Origin: Planctomycetota bacterium
GTDB taxonomy: Bacteria; Planctomycetota; Planctomycetia; Gemmatales; Gemmataceae
DNA: 64,000 bases
Direction: 5' to 3'
NCBI GenBank assembly: GCA_016191165.1
Contig: JACPPF010000183.1
Location: 1-64,000, forward strand
Shown: positions 48,651 to 64,000 of the stretch, one piece after another
Layout of the letters: every line of letters starts with the position of its first letter
Position numbering within the stretch: the stretch's first letter is position 1
Translations under genes and position numbers: made by a program
The notes under the pieces: model-generated
Told to the model about the DNA's origin: nothing
Seen by the model: the letters and a program-made list of their open reading frames with translations, nothing else
Databases searched by the model: none

Positions 48651-51587
48651 TTACTTGACACCCGCGCCCAGCGGTGGCGTGGCCGCGCTCCAGAGTTGGG
48701 TATCGAAGCGGTCGCCGGTGGAATAGGCGACGTACCAGTTGCCATCCTTGTTCCGGCCGAGGAAGTCAACCAGGCCGTTGCCATCGATGTCGGCCACTTG
48801 AAGCGTGGACCAATTTCGAGCCGCGGACCACTGGGCCCAGGACGAGGTGTCGAACTGAATGCCGTTGGAAAGCCCAACCTGGACGCTTCCATCCTTGTTG
48901 AAGCCGAGCACATCAATCAGGCCATCGCCGTTGAAATCGCCGACGCGGACCGTGCGCCAGGTGGAGGCGGCGGCCCAGCGCGCCCAGGGCTGAATGGTGA
49001 ACGATTCTCCGGTGGAGACGCCGACGCGCCACTGGCCCCCCAGACTGAAGCCGAGGACGTCCGTCTTGCCATCGCCGTTGACATCGCCGACCTGAATGGT
49101 GGACCAGTTGGTGGAGGCCGACCATTGCGACCAGAGCCGGGTGGAGAAGCCCGTGCCGGTGGAGAGTCCAACCCACCACCCGCCGTAAACGCTGAAGCCA
49201 GACACGTCGGTCTTGCCATCGCCGTCGAAATCACCGACCTGAAGTGAAGACCAAACGCTTGCGTTTGACCACCTGGCGAAGGAAATGTTGACGAACGAAT
49301 CGCCCGTGGAAAGCCCGACGCGCCAGACCCCGCCGGTGCTGAAGCCGACGACGTCGGTCTTGCCATCGGCGTTGAAATCGCCGACCTGAATCGAGCGCCA
49401 GGATGTGGCCGGCGCCCACACGGCCCATTTCTGATTGACGAATGTGCCGTCCGCATTCGCGAGGCTGACCCACCAGGCGCCGCCCGTGTTGAAAAGAGCG
49501 ACGTCCTGTCGGCCATCGCCGTTGAAGTCGCCACTGAAGCGCTTCACGCCCGGGGCGGCCGTGATCGTGACCTGGAAAGTGGTAAACGTCTGGAGCGAGC
49601 CATCCGAGCCCGCGACCTGGATCGACAGCCTGCCCGCGAAGTCGGGGGCGGCATGGATTGTCAATTGATCGCCGACGACCAAAAGGGTGGCCGGTGGCGT
49701 GGCGAACGAGCCGACCAGAGTTGCGGTGTAAGTGATGGCGTCGCCATTGGCATCCGCGCTGTTGAGCGAGACCGTCAAGCTTCGGCCGGCGAACATCGTC
49801 TGATCGGAAATGGCGCCGATCTGCGGTGCGGCGTTGCCTTGAATGGTGAGCCCAAACGTCTTGACCGAGGATAACTGGCCATCGGACGCGGTGACTTCGA
49901 CCTGGACGCTGCCGCTGCCATCCGCGGGAGCTTGAATCGTCAGGCGGTTGCCCGCGATGGATACCGTCGGAATGGCTCCGCTGCCGGGCTGGGCGTTCCA
50001 CAATAGACTTGGATCGGCATAAAAAGAAGCGTCGAGAGTCGCCACGAGATTGGCGGGGGACATCGTGGTTGCCATCGAGCCTTCCCAGCGGCGCACTTCG
50101 CCATTGGGCAAAATGCAGTACCAGGTTCCGCTGGTGCTCGTCATCCATTTTTCGTTTTCGCCCCAGCTATTCTGAAAGTAATCTCCCGCGAAGGTCAGGC
50201 CGAGTTGCTGTTGAAGCTGATACGCCTGAGACGACGAACCGCCGAGGACGCGGGCGCTGAAAGTGATGGCATCGCCGTTGGCGTCCGTCGCGTTGAGCGT
50301 GAGCGTCAACGTGCCGCCCGGCGCGACGTTTTGAGCCGCGATATCCTGGAGCACTGGCGCGGAGTTCGTCGGCGTACCCAGCGAATTGAGGGCGGCGTAT
50401 AGATCGAGCCGTTTGTAGGTTCGGCCGGTGTTGGCGACGTTGTCGTCCTCGTCGTCCCCGTCCACGATGCTAACGCCGGTCGTTTTCATGACATTGAGAA
50501 TTGTGTCCTGGTTGGCGGCCATGCCCAGCGAATCCATGGCTTGATGGATGAGCACGGCAGAGCCAGCGACGACGGGGGTCGCCATCGACGTACCCGCCAT
50601 GCCGCGGAACGTGTTGTTCAGGTAGGTGCTGGTGATGATGGCGCCAGGCGCCATGATGCTCAGGGCGGGGCCTCGCTGCGAGAAGCTGGCGACCCGATCC
50701 GCGGCCGTGGTGTTGTCGCGAGCGCCGGAACCCCAGGCCACGGCGCCGAAGTCGCCGGAATAAACCGCGCCGACCGAAGCCACCAACGGGCTGACCGCGG
50801 GATAGCTCATGCCGATCGCGCTGCTGTTGGAGTAAAAGCTGTTCCCCGCCGCGACAGAGATGAACACGCCGCCATTCTTGAGCGACGTGAATTCGTCGTC
50901 AAGGAACGTAAACGGATTCGTGGTGTAGTTGCCCGACCCGAGCGACAGGTTGACGGCGACGATGTTGTATTGGGCACGATAAGAGACAACCCATTGCAAG
51001 GCCGACTCGACGCTGCCGTAGGAACCCGAGCCATCGGCGCCCAGCACTTTGAGAGCGATGAGGTTGACGTCGGGCGCGACGCCGGAATAGGACTGGTTCG
51101 AGCTGCCGATGATGCCGGCGACGTGGGTGCCGTGGCCGTTGTCGTCCATCGGATTGGCGTCGTTATTGGCGAAATCCCAGCCGGCGATGACGCGAAAGCC
51201 CGGGCCGAACCCGCCGCCGAGATTGGGATTGTTGTAATCGATGCCGGTGTCGATGACGGCGACGCTGTAGCCCGCGCCGCGATAAGAAGTATTGCTGAAG
51301 ACGTTGGGCAGGCCGATGAGCGGGCCGAACGTGGGATTTTGTCCCGACAGCGCGCTCGCGGAGGCCAGCGTCGCATCGCCGGTCTGCACGCTGGAATCGA
51401 CGACACTCACGTCATCCACGCGAAAGGTTTGCTGACTCCAGGCTTCATGTACGGGGTCGATCGGACCAACGACGGCGGGAACGAGACGATCTTCGAGGCA
51501 TTCCACGGCTAGACGCGCCGTGGTGGGACGGCGACGGACGGGGGCCTTCGGCGCGCGGCGCCACGGCCATAGTTTGGACCAAAACAT
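48651..51587 (-). CDS. Secreted subtilisin-like protease with FG-GAP/VCBS-like repeats
   Basis: 978 residues. An N-terminal basic region and the LEDRLVPA motif (LEDR 31-34) precede a full S8 catalytic domain: Asp113 in VAVIDTGID, His152 in NGHGTHVAG, oxyanion Asn249 in AAGNS, Ser334 in GTSMATPVVAG. Two Ig-like modules (about 460-680) follow, and then about six FG-GAP-like repeats of 45-50 residues (VGDFNGDGKTDVxGFS), likely a calcium-binding propeller. Start at ATG 51587 with AAGGA upstream; the longer frame to 51821 is not needed. The gap 51588-52129 upstream shows nothing I can assign besides promoter space for divergent genes. Confidence 0.88.
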   Translation of the reverse strand: MFWSKLWPWRRAPKAPVRRRPTTARLAVECLEDRLVPAVVGPIDPVHEAWSQQTFRVDDVSVVDSSVQTGDATLASASALSGQNPTFGPLIGLPNVFSNTSYRGAGYSVAVIDTGIDYNNPNLGGGFGPGFRVIAGWDFANNDANPMDDNGHGTHVAGIIGSSNQSYSGVAPDVNLIALKVLGADGSGSYGSVESALQWVVSYRAQYNIVAVNLSLGSGNYTTNPFTFLDDEFTSLKNGGVFISVAAGNSFYSNSSAIGMSYPAVSPLVASVGAVYSGDFGAVAWGSGARDNTTAADRVASFSQRGPALSIMAPGAIITSTYLNNTFRGMAGTSMATPVVAGSAVLIHQAMDSLGMAANQDTILNVMKTTGVSIVDGDDEDDNVANTGRTYKRLDLYAALNSLGTPTNSAPVLQDIAAQNVAPGGTLTLTLNATDANGDAITFSARVLGGSSSQAYQLQQQLGLTFAGDYFQNSWGENEKWMTSTSGTWYCILPNGEVRRWEGSMATTMSPANLVATLDASFYADPSLLWNAQPGSGAIPTVSIAGNRLTIQAPADGSGSVQVEVTASDGQLSSVKTFGLTIQGNAAPQIGAISDQTMFAGRSLTVSLNSADANGDAITYTATLVGSFATPPATLLVVGDQLTIHAAPDFAGRLSIQVAGSDGSLQTFTTFQVTITAAPGVKRFSGDFNGDGRQDVALFNTGGAWWVSLANADGTFVNQKWAVWAPATSWRSIQVGDFNADGKTDVVGFSTGGVWRVGLSTGDSFVNISFARWSNASVWSSLQVGDFDGDGKTDVSGFSVYGGWWVGLSTGTGFSTRLWSQWSASTNWSTIQVGDVNGDGKTDVLGFSLGGQWRVGVSTGESFTIQPWARWAAASTWRTVRVGDFNGDGLIDVLGFNKDGSVQVGLSNGIQFDTSSWAQWSAARNWSTLQVADIDGNGLVDFLGRNKDGNWYVAYSTGDRFDTQLWSAATPPLGAGVK

Positions 51588-52129
51588 GGAAAGATTCCTT
51601 CGGCAACCTGGCGACCACCAATGCCGCGGCGGGAAGCGGCAACGTTGGCCCATGGCTTTGCGTCCCCACGTCACCGTGGGTTTGCTCTTGTCGGGAATCA
51701 GCAATTTACTGATTCTGACAAAACCATAGCTCATGACGACTATGCAGGCAAATCCGATGATGCCGATCCGGGCGCAAATGCCGGTAGGATCGACGCACCC
51801 GCGCGCCGCACAAGCGTTCAACGGTGACGATTACGTGGGAAATGCCAACGTTGCAGCCACGTTGGGGGAGATCCATTCCGTTTCCAGGCGTCCTGCCCGC
51901 CGAGCGTATTGTACAAATGCACCGTGGTGGGGATATTCTTGAAATGCGGATATTGGCAGAAAATCAAAGAATAGCTTGTCAACGCAATCCGATCACGGGA
52001 AGTCTGTCGATTGGGTTCCCGGCGCCGGGCATTGCCTGGCGACAACAACTGCGCTTGCTCGATCCGCGGTTTCCGCTAAATTGGAATAGGGCGCCGGTTC
52101 GATTGAACGATAGACTCTGGGGATTGTGA

Positions 52130-52468
52130 ATGGCGGCAAAGCGTTATTTGATGAATGCAGGCCGAACCACCAAGCAGGGCCAGCAGATCAACATCGGCAA
52201 GGACTCCCCGGAATACCTGGCGCTCACGACCACCATCTTCATGAATGCCGACGACATGAAAGAGGCCGGCATCACTTCGGGCGTGAACGTGCGGGTCGTC
52301 TCCGACAACGGCGAGGCGATCTTTCTGTGCAAGGAAGGCAAGATTCCGGCGGGGATCATCTTCGTCGCCTACGGCCCGCCGACCTGCAAGTTGATGGGCC
52401 AAACCACGGACGGAACCGGCATGCCAACGTCGAAGGGCTGGGAAGTTGAAGTCGAACCCATCGTTTAG
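52130..52468 (+). CDS. fmdD: Formylmethanofuran dehydrogenase subunit D-like (molybdopterin-binding)
   Basis: 112 residues fitting FmdD/FwdD: MNAGRTTKQGQQINIGKDSPEYL, a beta barrel with GVNVRVVSDNGEAIFLCKEG, and PAGIIFVAYGPPTCKLMG, which in the archaeal enzyme helps hold the bis-pterin cofactor against subunit B. Subunit D is separate in methanogens and is not part of the aerobic-methylotroph Fhc complex. Located 1.6 kb upstream of fmdB on the same strand, with three unrelated-looking genes between. Confidence 0.85.
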   Translation: MAAKRYLMNAGRTTKQGQQINIGKDSPEYLALTTTIFMNADDMKEAGITSGVNVRVVSDNGEAIFLCKEGKIPAGIIFVAYGPPTCKLMGQTTDGTGMPTSKGWEVEVEPIV

Positions 52469-54078: not shown

Positions 54079-55407
54079 ATGCCTCTAACCATCGTCAAAA
54101 ACGCCACCTGCACTTTTTGTGGCTGCGTCTGCGATGACATCGAGTTGCATGCCGACGGTATACGAATCACCGAGACCAAACGAGCGTGCAGCCTCGGCGA
54201 ATCGTGGTTCAAGAATCACACCGCGGAACACCTCTATCCCGACGCGCTGATTGATGGCCATCCCGCCACCGTGGATGACGCGGTTGAGGCCGCCGCCGAT
54301 TACTTGCTGAACGCGGACATGCCGCTCGTTTATGGCATGAGCAATATCACCTGTGAGGCTCAGCGGGAAGCGGTGTCGCTGGCCGAGTTGGTTGGCGCGG
54401 TTGTCGATAGCCACACCTCGCTCTGACACGGGCCAACCGAGATTGCCGCCCAGTTGGGCGGAAAGGTGACCTGCACGCTGGGCGAAGTGAAAAACCGGGC
54501 CGACTTCATGATCTACTGGGGAGGCAACCCGGCCGAATGCCACCCCCGGCACTTCACGAAATATTCCCTCACGCAAAAAGGCAAGTTCACGCCCAAGGGA
54601 CGCAAAGACCGCACCATGGTCCTTGTCGATATCCGCGAGACTCCCAGCGCCAAGGCGGCCGACGTATTCTTGCAGGTTCGGCCCGGCAAGGACTTCGAAC
54701 TCGTCACCGCGCTGCGTGCGATCGTCAAGGGCCAGCGCGTCAACGAGGCCGCCGTCGCCGAGACGGGACTGCCTCTTGAAAAGCTGCACGAGCTCGTCGC
54801 CATGATGAAGGCGGCCCGCTTCGGCATCATCTTCTTCGGCATGGGCCTGTCGATGACGCGCGGCAAGCACATGAACTCCGCCGCCGTCCTGATGCTCGCC
54901 GCCGAGATGAACGCGTTCACGAAATTCGTGGCCATGCCGATGCGAGGCCACGGCAACGTCACCGGCGCCGATGTCGTCATGCGCTACACGACGGGCTATC
55001 CGTTCGGCGTCAACCTGTGCCGTGGGTATCCGCGTTTCAATCCTGGCGAGTTTTCGACGGTGGACCTGCTTGTGCGCGGCGACAACGACGCCTGCCTGGT
55101 ACTCGGCGCCGACCCGGGCGCGACGATGCCGCAGCCGGCGATTAACCATCTGGCGCGCATCCCGACGATCACCCTCGATCCCAAGGTTACGCACACGAGC
55201 CGGCTATCGCGCGTTCACATCACGACGGCGGTGACCGGCGTCAGCGCCCCGGGAACCGCGTACCGCATGGACGAGATCCCGCTGCCGTTGCGACCAGCGC
55301 TGAAGTCGCCGTACCCGACGGATGAAGAGGTCGTGCGACGCATTCGCGAGGCAGTCATGCGCCGGCCGGCGTGGCTGCCGGAGCGCAATGCGGAGATGGT
55401 GGTGTAG
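54079..55407 (+). CDS. fmdB: Formylmethanofuran dehydrogenase subunit B, probable selenoprotein (in-frame UGA = Sec116)
   Basis: 442 residues if TGA 54424-54426 is read as Sec116. The N-terminal [4Fe-4S] motif is CTFCGCVC (Cys11, 14, 16, 18) with Cys37 in RACSLG. Next is NITCEAQREAVSLAELVGAV, then the TGA, then HGPTEIAAQLGGKVTCTLGE and RADFMIYWGGNPAE, a continuous match to the Mo/W-bis-PGD catalytic subunit. Family members have Cys (or Sec in some methanogens) before HGP as the metal ligand. No frameshift or other stop occurs, and a hairpin follows at SECIS distance. The alternatives are a nonsense mutation or a sequencing error at exactly this codon. Forms a complex with FmdA, C and D that interconverts CO2 or formate and formyl-methanofuran. 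Confidence 0.88.
54424..54470 (+). promoter_or_regulatory. UGA(Sec) codon with candidate bacterial SECIS hairpin
   Basis: TGA at 54424-54426 is followed by CCGCCC (54446-54451), an AGTT loop (54452-54455) and GGGCGG (54456-54461). The loop lies 25 nt after the UGA, within the 16-37 nt range usual for bacterial SECIS, and contains the G-U typical of SelB-recognised loops. The first bases after UGA (CACGGGCC) also resemble those after the Sec codon of formate dehydrogenase genes. Confidence 0.65.
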
Positions 55408-55437
55408 CGCGCGGATAAGATGAAAGGAGGGTGTTCC

Positions 55438-55794
55438 ATGGTCAGCGAAATCACGCTAATCGATAAGGGCCGAGGACTGCAGCTCTCAACGAGCCGCATT
55501 ACGGTGATGGACTTGGTCCAGTACTTCAAACATGATTGGTCCTACGAAGAAATCATGCAGTGGATTCCTTCGCTGACTCGCGAAGAGATCGCTGTGGTCG
55601 AAGCATACTATCGCGAACACAAGAACGAGCTGGACGAGGAAGATCGAAAGATCGACGAGTATCGCGAAGAGCAAGCACGGCTTCAGGCCCTCCGTTTCCC
55701 GATTCCCGACGAAACCAGGGAGGAAAAACTTGCTCGCTTCCGGAAGTTGCTGAAGGCGCGTGAGGAGAAAAACGGTGAAGGGAATCCTCGCTGA
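55438..55794 (+). CDS. DUF433-type antitoxin (module 1)
   Basis: 118 residues; ATG 55438 has AAGGAGG upstream, so the in-frame ATG at 55420 is not used. The core STSRITVMDLVQYFKHDWSYEEIMQWIPSLTREEI is the DUF433 helix-turn-helix-like fold, with a long acidic helical C-terminus that would contact the toxin. It overlaps the downstream toxin gene by 20 bp. Paralogous to the gene at 62615-62992 (same STSRITV core, same overlap). Placed 30 bp after fmdB. Confidence 0.8.
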   Translation: MVSEITLIDKGRGLQLSTSRITVMDLVQYFKHDWSYEEIMQWIPSLTREEIAVVEAYYREHKNELDEEDRKIDEYREEQARLQALRFPIPDETREEKLARFRKLLKAREEKNGEGNPR

Positions 55795-56191
55795 TGCCAA
55801 CATCACCGGCCCGATCGAATCGCTCGTCCACCAGATGCAATCCGGTACGTGGGTCGAGTTCTGGACGGCGCTCGGTCTGCAATTCAAACGATTCGACGAC
55901 TTGGGGCTGTCGCCGGATGCGTCCGACTTCACCGTCTGGCAGACTTGCCAATCCGAGCATTTAATTCTGATTACCGCCAATCGCAATAAGAAGTCTGCGG
56001 ATTCCCTGGAAGAGACGATTCTTCAGTACAATCAGCCTGATAGCCTACCGGTGTTTACAATCTCTAATATGGAAGCGTTTGGCGCTAGCCGAACCTACGC
56101 GGAAAAGGTTCTGGAGCATCTGTACGATTACCTGCTGCGCATCGACGAATTCCGCGGCACCGGGCGGTTGTATTTGCCGCAGAAGCAATAG
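55775..56191 (+). CDS. DUF5615 PIN-like toxin (module 1)
   Basis: 138 residues from GTG 55775 inside the antitoxin's end. Starts KGILADANITGPIESLV: an early acidic pair (AD-x-N) typical of PIN-like DUF5615 proteins. The second block is HLILITANRNKKSADSLEETI (acidic residues after ITANR), and RGTGRLYLP closes the protein. Paralogous to 62973-63380 over the whole length. Likely an RNase toxin neutralised by the DUF433 protein; activity unproven. Confidence 0.75.
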   Translation: MKGILADANITGPIESLVHQMQSGTWVEFWTALGLQFKRFDDLGLSPDASDFTVWQTCQSEHLILITANRNKKSADSLEETILQYNQPDSLPVFTISNMEAFGASRTYAEKVLEHLYDYLLRIDEFRGTGRLYLPQKQ

Positions 56192-62614: not shown

Positions 62615-62992
62615 ATGAAAACCGATGAAATCCAGATTGTCGATCACGGCCGCGGGCCTCAGCTATCGACCAGCCGGATCACCGTGCTGGATGTGTTTTT
62701 CTACCTGCACCGCGGCTACGACTTTGATTTCATTCACCGCGCCATGCCGAGTCTGACGGCTGAGGAATTTGCAGCGCTCGTCGCCTATGTCGAGGTTCAC
62801 CGTGACGAACTCGTGGAGCAAGACCGGCGTGCTGAGGAATTTCACCGGCGCGGCATGGAGGCCCAACACGCCCGCGGCGGGATCTTCGCGGCGAGCGACG
62901 AAACGCTTACCACCGAGGAACGGATTGCCCGCCTGAAGGAAAAAATGAGGGCGCGCTTGACGGAGAAAAACGGTGCCCGTCATTCTGATTGA
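62615..62992 (+). CDS. DUF433-type antitoxin (module 2)
   Basis: 125 residues; core STSRITVLDVFFYLHRGYDFDFI and IARLKEKMRARLTEKNG tail resemble module 1 closely. The helical, charged C-terminal extension is longer. It overlaps the toxin gene by 20 bp exactly as in module 1, so the pair was probably duplicated as a unit. AGGA lies upstream of the ATG. Confidence 0.8.
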   Translation: MKTDEIQIVDHGRGPQLSTSRITVLDVFFYLHRGYDFDFIHRAMPSLTAEEFAALVAYVEVHRDELVEQDRRAEEFHRRGMEAQHARGGIFAASDETLTTEERIARLKEKMRARLTEKNGARHSD

Positions 62993-63380
62993 CACAAACA
63001 TCGAGGGCCACGGCGCTCACATCTGGATGCACATGAGAACCGCCACGTGGCAAGATCTGACCGATGCCCTCGGTGTAACGATGCGTCAATTTTGCGATGT
63101 CGGTCTCGACGCAGCCTCCCCTGACGATGTCGTATGGCGTTTTTGCCAGGCAGAAGAGTTCTATTTGCTGACCAGCAACCGTAATGAGGAATCGGATAAT
63201 TCTCTTGAAGCAACGTTGCGTCGCGAAGGTACGCCGACGAGCCTGCCTGTGATCACACTGCCATTGCCTGACCGCGTTTTCCAAAGCTCCTCCTTTTGTG
63301 ATCGTGTGGTGGAAAAACTCTTCGACTACTTGCTATACGCCGAGAACATCCGCGGAGCGGGAAGACTTTATTTGCCATGA
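62973..63380 (+). CDS. DUF5615 PIN-like toxin (module 2)
   Basis: 135 residues from GTG 62973 within the antitoxin. PVILIDTNIEGHG replaces the KGILADANITG start of module 1; the middle keeps LLTSNRNEESDNSLEATL and the end RGAGRLYLP. The early acidic residue and the second Asp/Glu cluster are preserved, so an active PIN-like nuclease is plausible. It converges with the fmdC end 30 bp away. Confidence 0.75.
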   Translation: MPVILIDTNIEGHGAHIWMHMRTATWQDLTDALGVTMRQFCDVGLDAASPDDVVWRFCQAEEFYLLTSNRNEESDNSLEATLRREGTPTSLPVITLPLPDRVFQSSSFCDRVVEKLFDYLLYAENIRGAGRLYLP

Positions 63381-63410: not shown

Positions 63411-64000
63411 TCATCCGACATTCCACACCAAAATCTCCCCATGCCCCGGCACCGACGAGTCGCCGCAGTAACGCTCGTACATCCCGTCATGCGGAATCGA
63501 AAGCCCAAGCAACTTGAGGTGTTTGGCATACAGGCCAAGGAACGTGGGATCGTAAGAACACGAATAGGAGAAGGTCGGCAACAGCTTGAGCGGCTTCATG
63601 GACACGATGGTGCCGCGAAACATCCAGGCGCCGGTGCGGATCTCGGCGCCGCTCATGAGGAAGATGGTCCCGCCCTTCATTTGCAGGCCGGCGAAGTCAC
63701 GCGCCACGCCGCCGATGACGATGATGCCGCGTTTCATGCGCATGCCGACTTCGAGCCCCGCGGCCCCGCCGACGAGGATGGCGCCGCCGTTCATACCGGC
63801 CAAACTGCCGCGATAGGCGGCGCCGACCTGCCCGCCGGCATTGCCCGCGATGCGGATCAGGCCATTCCTCATCTCGGCGCCGACCCAGTCCGAAGCGTTG
63901 CCGGTGACCTCGATGGTCCCGCCTTTCATGTAAGCACCCAGGTGCATGCCCACGTTACCGTGGATCTTGATGTGGCCGCGCGTCATGGCCCGGCCGATCC
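63411..64000 (-). CDS. fmdC: Formylmethanofuran dehydrogenase subunit C (partial, 5' end outside window)
   Basis: About 196 visible residues of the C-terminal part. The GxxxxGxxMxxGxIxIxGNA repeat of subunit C beta-helices is obvious: GMHLGAYMKGGTIEVTGNA, WVGAEMRNGLIRIAGNAG, GMRMKRGIIVIGGVA, FAGLQMKGGTIFLM. The frame is open to the window edge. Subunit C is related to glutamate synthase alpha-subunit C-terminal domains and binds next to FmdA. It is on the opposite strand and 8 kb from fmdB, showing a rearranged locus. Confidence 0.9.
   Translation of the reverse strand, partial: IGRAMTRGHIKIHGNVGMHLGAYMKGGTIEVTGNASDWVGAEMRNGLIRIAGNAGGQVGAAYRGSLAGMNGGAILVGGAAGLEVGMRMKRGIIVIGGVARDFAGLQMKGGTIFLMSGAEIRTGAWMFRGTIVSMKPLKLLPTFSYSCSYDPTFLGLYAKHLKLLGLSIPHDGMYERYCGDSSVPGHGEILVWNVG

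Follow-up and report, generated by a model that had tools for sequence, protein, structure and literature searches.

A probable selenocysteine-containing formylmethanofuran dehydrogenase subunit B in a Gemmataceae genome and its bacterial relatives

The gene fmdB, coding for the catalytic subunit B of formylmethanofuran dehydrogenase, occupies positions 54079-55407 of the forward strand in the window, a stretch of 64,000 nucleotides from a Planctomycetota (Gemmataceae) draft MAG. Its frame spans 442 codons, ends with TAG and has a sole internal stop, the TGA of codon 116 (54424-54426, forward strand), which is predicted to code for selenocysteine (Sec). When this codon is read through, the product scores 503 bits against TIGR03129 (cut-off 327.8), with residues 8-426 aligned to positions 1-421 of the 421 in the profile, and it matches the tungsten FwdB of PDB entry 5t5i (chain 5t5i_B) with 372 bits over nearly its full length. 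The residues around codon 116 are DSHTSLUHGPTEIAAQLGG, the UGA being followed by HGP. Methanothermobacter FwdB has Cys118 (residue counted from the alignment) where the window has the Sec codon, and this cysteine is its tungsten ligand. The first-pass annotation had described a single FmdB frame broken by one TGA that falls on the metal-ligating cysteine position before His-Gly-Pro, and both points agree with these alignments. In the best solved-structure match, 9sfi_Q, a non-standard residue X stands opposite codon 116 and may be Sec. The cysteines of the [4Fe-4S] site near the amino terminus (Cys 11, 14, 18 and 37) are intact in the window protein and are kept in each of the 46 Sec relatives whose sequence extends over those positions. 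A family search of the window genome gave no second FmdB above the family cut-off.

The partner subunits A, C and D of the complex are all encoded in the genome, the FwdD-like protein scoring below the strict cut-off. A gene for an fmdD-like subunit with a molybdopterin dinucleotide-binding domain (PF01568, 38.7 bits) lies at 52130-52468 of the forward strand; its product reaches 78.7 bits (E 3.9e-22) against NF042908 FwdD, whose cut-off is 175, and two small genes stand between it and fmdB. The reverse strand carries fmdC at 63411-64000; its start falls outside the window, near contig base 64217, and the portion within the window scores 176 bits against TIGR03122 (cut-off 130.65). The fmdA gene is found just past the window on the same strand (contig 65825-67507; L090 1825-3507) and scores 703 bits as FmdA. 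Both fmdA and fmdC are thus on the strand opposite to fmdB and about 8-10 kb from it, with unrelated genes between. Two relatives, strain K23_9 (L138) and another MAG (L170), have fmdB, fmdA and fmdC next to one another. The genome also codes for Ftr (twice), Mch and Fae.

The interval between fmdB and fmdC is flanked by two similar two-gene units on the forward strand, at 55420-56191 and 62615-63380. In each unit the gene for a DUF433 protein precedes that for a DUF5615-like protein, an arrangement resembling toxin-antitoxin pairs, and the proteins of the two units align mutually over most of their length. These units may have been involved in rearranging the fmd genes. A large subtilase (Peptidase_S8) with FG-GAP repeats, encoded on the reverse strand at 48651-51821, is unrelated to the fmdB finding.

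The in-frame TGA is shared by many relatives. In the window's order, 102 genomes were covered by a family search that was unbiased as to TGA, and 46 of them have an FmdB with one TGA, always at codon 116. All 47 genes that were fetched from this clade, the window's included, have TGA followed by HGP at this codon, never TAA or TAG, and none has a second stop. The suggestion that related planctomycetes be compared at this codon, other stops in their fmdB being taken as contrary evidence, thus led to the same TGA in relatives and to no other stop within the TGA clade. Among the non-TGA FmdB genes of the order codon 116 specifies Cys in 22, Gly in 27 and other residues in 13. A scan of named genomes, made with a pattern that itself contains TGA and over contigs that overlap the order set, gave at least 117 stretches, at least 112 of which encode FmdB and have their TGA at codon 116. 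Five pattern matches (Gordonia, Chitinophagaceae twice, Ignavibacteriae and Heteroscilispira) showed no resemblance to FmdB and were discarded as chance hits. Among the matches listed, with MAG taxon names taken as deposited, most are from Planctomycetota, with Gemmataceae, Pirellulaceae, Rhodopirellula, Rubripirellula and the complete K23_9 genome (CP036526) among them, and several are from Acidobacteriota MAGs.

A tree of 105 sequences, built with the Sec position masked and by a quick method without bootstrap, groups the Sec sequences, 35 in all, into a single clade (SH-aLRT 99). Reversion to Cys was not seen within the Sec clade, where the named-genome matches listed had been chosen by TGA. 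Some genomes carry the Sec-fmdB gene next to a second fmdB-like gene, which has Cys at the ligand position in one case (L060, genome G017) and Thr in two others (L046 and L052, genomes G053 and G054).

A SECIS-type hairpin, CCGCCC-AGUU-GGGCGG, is found shortly after the UGA at 54446-54461 of the forward strand. Its stem has 6 bp in the window and 7 bp in many relatives, and the loop of 4 nt (AGUU) begins 25 nt past the UGA. The model of bacterial SECIS elements (bSECIS) has a loop of 3-9 nt, a stem of 4-16 bp, a distance of 16-37 nt from the UGA and a G among the first two loop bases (PMC13188914). The window hairpin is within these limits for loop size, stem length, loop G and spacing, so that the stretch 54424-54480, proposed by the first-pass annotation for a SECIS search, does hold a hairpin of bSECIS type. 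The six pairs are kept in 113 of 118 distinct sequences, in 112 of them together with the AGUU loop, and the seven-bp stem in 103. When codons were redrawn synonymously from each gene's own usage the seven-bp stem with AGUU appeared in 2.9% of draws; for this stem regardless of the loop the figure was 13%. Leu126, whose codon contributes to loop and stem, is TTG in 47/47 sequences, while TTG makes up 14.8% of the remaining Leu codons, and Leu126 is the sole conserved Leu column of the 47 sequences that has a fixed codon; Gln125 is likewise CAG in 47/47. All 77 distinct non-TGA paralogs lack the stem at this location, though 33 of them have looser bSECIS-like hairpins nearby. A double compensatory change was seen at one stem pair only, in one sequence. 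The folding energy of the window's 57-nt stretch alone is unexceptional (z -1.1), and the case for a SECIS element rests on conservation of stem and loop; the mean folding z against synonymous shuffles is -0.84. The most divergent SECIS, in an Acidobacteriota MAG (L226), codes for the residues AVQVGG and has an AGGU loop with the stem still kept.

Most components for Sec synthesis and insertion are encoded in the window genome, which has a tRNA-Sec (73 bits, anticodon TCA), SelA (560 bits) and SelB (362 bits). A search for the four sel genes had been put forward earlier as a check on the Sec reading; selA, selB and the tRNA-Sec gene were recovered and selD was not, the best match to it in this MAG of about 95% completeness scoring 57.9 bits against a cut-off of 125. 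A selD above the cut-off is present in 88 of the 102 genomes of the order. Weak selD-like matches occur across the order beside the true SelD, and those of about 60 bits are probably relatives of the family such as ThiL. At the estimated completeness of 95% the simplest reading of the missing selD is an assembly gap. A full selA is missing from the assemblies of 4 of the 46 TGA genomes, and across the order TGA-fmdB and selA show no association (42/46 versus 48/56, Fisher p 0.54) because selA is nearly universal there. The selD genes of the order are themselves diverse: in many genomes selD itself contains one TGA and likely codes for a Sec-containing SelD, and in others selD matches lie in open frames of about 630-850 codons that are possible fusions. 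Both the TGA-selD and the long-frame selD are found within the window's genus.

A single stop within the otherwise intact frame of a draft MAG could result from a nonsense mutation that left a decaying pseudogene, or from an assembly error in a Cys codon. Independent genomes refute this reading, since TGA recurs at codon 116 in 46 genomes of the order and in over 100 named contigs from different studies; the reading retains practically no probability. The conserved hairpin, the lack of other stops and the substitution pattern also speak against it: in comparisons of fmdB with eight close relatives dN/dS is 0.05-0.11 upstream of the TGA and 0.06-0.14 downstream, which shows that both parts are under purifying selection. 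The earlier argument that conservation past the TGA is at odds with decay is thereby upheld, the downstream part having no further stop. Purifying selection on both sides would equally fit a split gene, in which translation truly ends at the TGA and two polypeptides are made, the second by an internal restart such as TTG 54454, from which an ORF of 317 amino acids runs on after the stop. It is very improbable that the gene is organised in this way, since the stop is invariably TGA in the 47 genes and always sits at the metal-ligand codon. Two polypeptides would lose the ligand and cut the motif SHTSLUHGPTEIAA, which is conserved on either side of the codon, and the supposed restart TTG is the loop codon of Leu126, fixed as a SECIS loop would require. 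The frame that continues unchanged past the TGA might also be decoded by a near-cognate or suppressor tRNA that inserts Trp or Cys, or under a partly reassigned code. The TGA is an ordinary stop in 11 of 16 neighbouring reading frames examined, which argues against a general change of code; the presence of tRNA-Sec, SelA and SelB, the conserved SECIS-type hairpin and the Cys found at codon 116 in paralogs make such decoding highly unlikely as well. As judged from sequence, it is very probable that UGA codon 116 encodes Sec in a full-length FmdB of 442 residues that would belong to a genuine formylmethanofuran dehydrogenase.

According to the Sec reading, SelB carrying Sec-tRNA-Sec and GTP would bind the AGUU-loop hairpin of the mRNA just past the UGA. 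Sec would be made on tRNA-Sec by SelA with selenophosphate supplied by SelD, the protein not found in the assembly. The inserted residue would take the place of Cys as protein ligand of a W or Mo bis-pyranopterin centre, and FmdB would form the dehydrogenase together with FmdD, which brings a cofactor domain, FmdC and FmdA. The complex would act alongside Ftr, Mch and Fae in C1 metabolism linked to tetrahydromethanopterin, where formyl groups carried by formylmethanofuran would be oxidised to CO2 or the reaction would run in the reverse direction. Sec insertion, the metal, the direction of the reaction and the activity of the window FmdB on methanofuran and on CO2 or formate are deduced from these features.

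In planctomycetes, the C1 metabolism based on tetrahydromethanopterin makes use of Fhc-type genes. This usage, the Ftr/FhcD encoded in the genome and the 27 Gly-type paralogs of the order, which have no ligand, would fit a Sec protein that belongs to a formyltransferase/hydrolase (Fhc-like) complex and not to a dehydrogenase active on CO2 or formate. Such a role appears unlikely, since the Sec clade fully conserves the ligand position together with His-Gly-Pro and the four Fe-S cysteines, and the genome encodes a FwdD-like cofactor subunit. The Gly paralogs also keep the Fe-S cysteines, hence it is the ligand that separates the two functions. The retention of the Sec ligand throughout the clade suggests a real redox enzyme acting on formyl groups or CO2, beyond the ligand-less Fhc type. 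The broader proposal is that one Sec-FmdB lineage, spread over Planctomycetota and Acidobacteriota, is a true CO2/formate-active enzyme outside methanogenic settings, with Sec always kept and the protein being the sole FmdB in some genomes; it is put forward tentatively, with its chances set a little under even.

A literature search for Sec-FmdB in Acidobacteria and Gemmata turned up a single relevant paper, Kim et al. 2016 (PMC4807772). The first-pass annotation had held that a Sec-containing FmdB in a planctomycete would extend this selenoprotein family to bacteria. A bacterial Sec-FmdB is supported here but is not new: that paper reported that fmdB codes for a selenoprotein in Rhodopirellula sp. 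P2 and two unclassified bacteria, the closest match being in a Lake Washington fosmid (PMC4807772). As far as the literature search shows, the new elements are its wide distribution, which takes in the window's order as well as Acidobacteriota, the tests of the hairpin and the single Sec clade. A text search of two recent reviews (PMC13188914 and PMC9312934) found planctomycetes in neither, and the review that discusses the subunit assigns it to methanogens. Under table 11, gene callers split fmdB at its UGA, and the main catalytic subunit can then easily be overlooked or labelled a pseudogene in reconstructions of the C1 metabolism of planctomycetes and acidobacteria. Cultured planctomycetes offer a setting to ask why selenium was retained in FmdB.

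The closest known Sec-FmdB proteins are those of Rhodopirellula sp. P2 and the Lake Washington fosmid. As described in PMC4807772, P2 resembles the window genome in having an fmdB with an in-frame UGA, further fmd genes and Sec machinery, and the Rhodopirellula sequences from the scan share the clade of the window FmdB. The P2 genome, which codes for the Sec machinery, has the operon order fmdD-fmdB-fmdA-fmdC (PMC4807772), in contrast to the distant and opposite fmdA and fmdC of the window genome. Glycine-type homologs were listed for Gemmata obscuriglobus and others (PMC4807772), whereas in the window's order, Gemmataceae MAGs included, the Sec form is widespread. A selenium-dependent formylmethanofuran dehydrogenase is described for Methanopyrus kandleri (Vorholt et al. 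1997, as cited in PMC13188914). The methanogen Sec enzyme is of the same family as the window FmdB and also has Sec-His-x-Pro at the metal ligand. Archaeal SECIS elements are mostly in the 3' UTR (PMC13188914), while the window hairpin lies directly past the UGA in the bacterial manner. The bacterial Sec formate dehydrogenase FdhA (for example E. coli FdnG, PDB 1kqf) shares with the window protein the Mo/W superfamily, Sec-His-x-Pro and a SECIS element past the UGA, but it is of a different family with different subunits and its similarity to the window FmdB is weak (36.8 bits).
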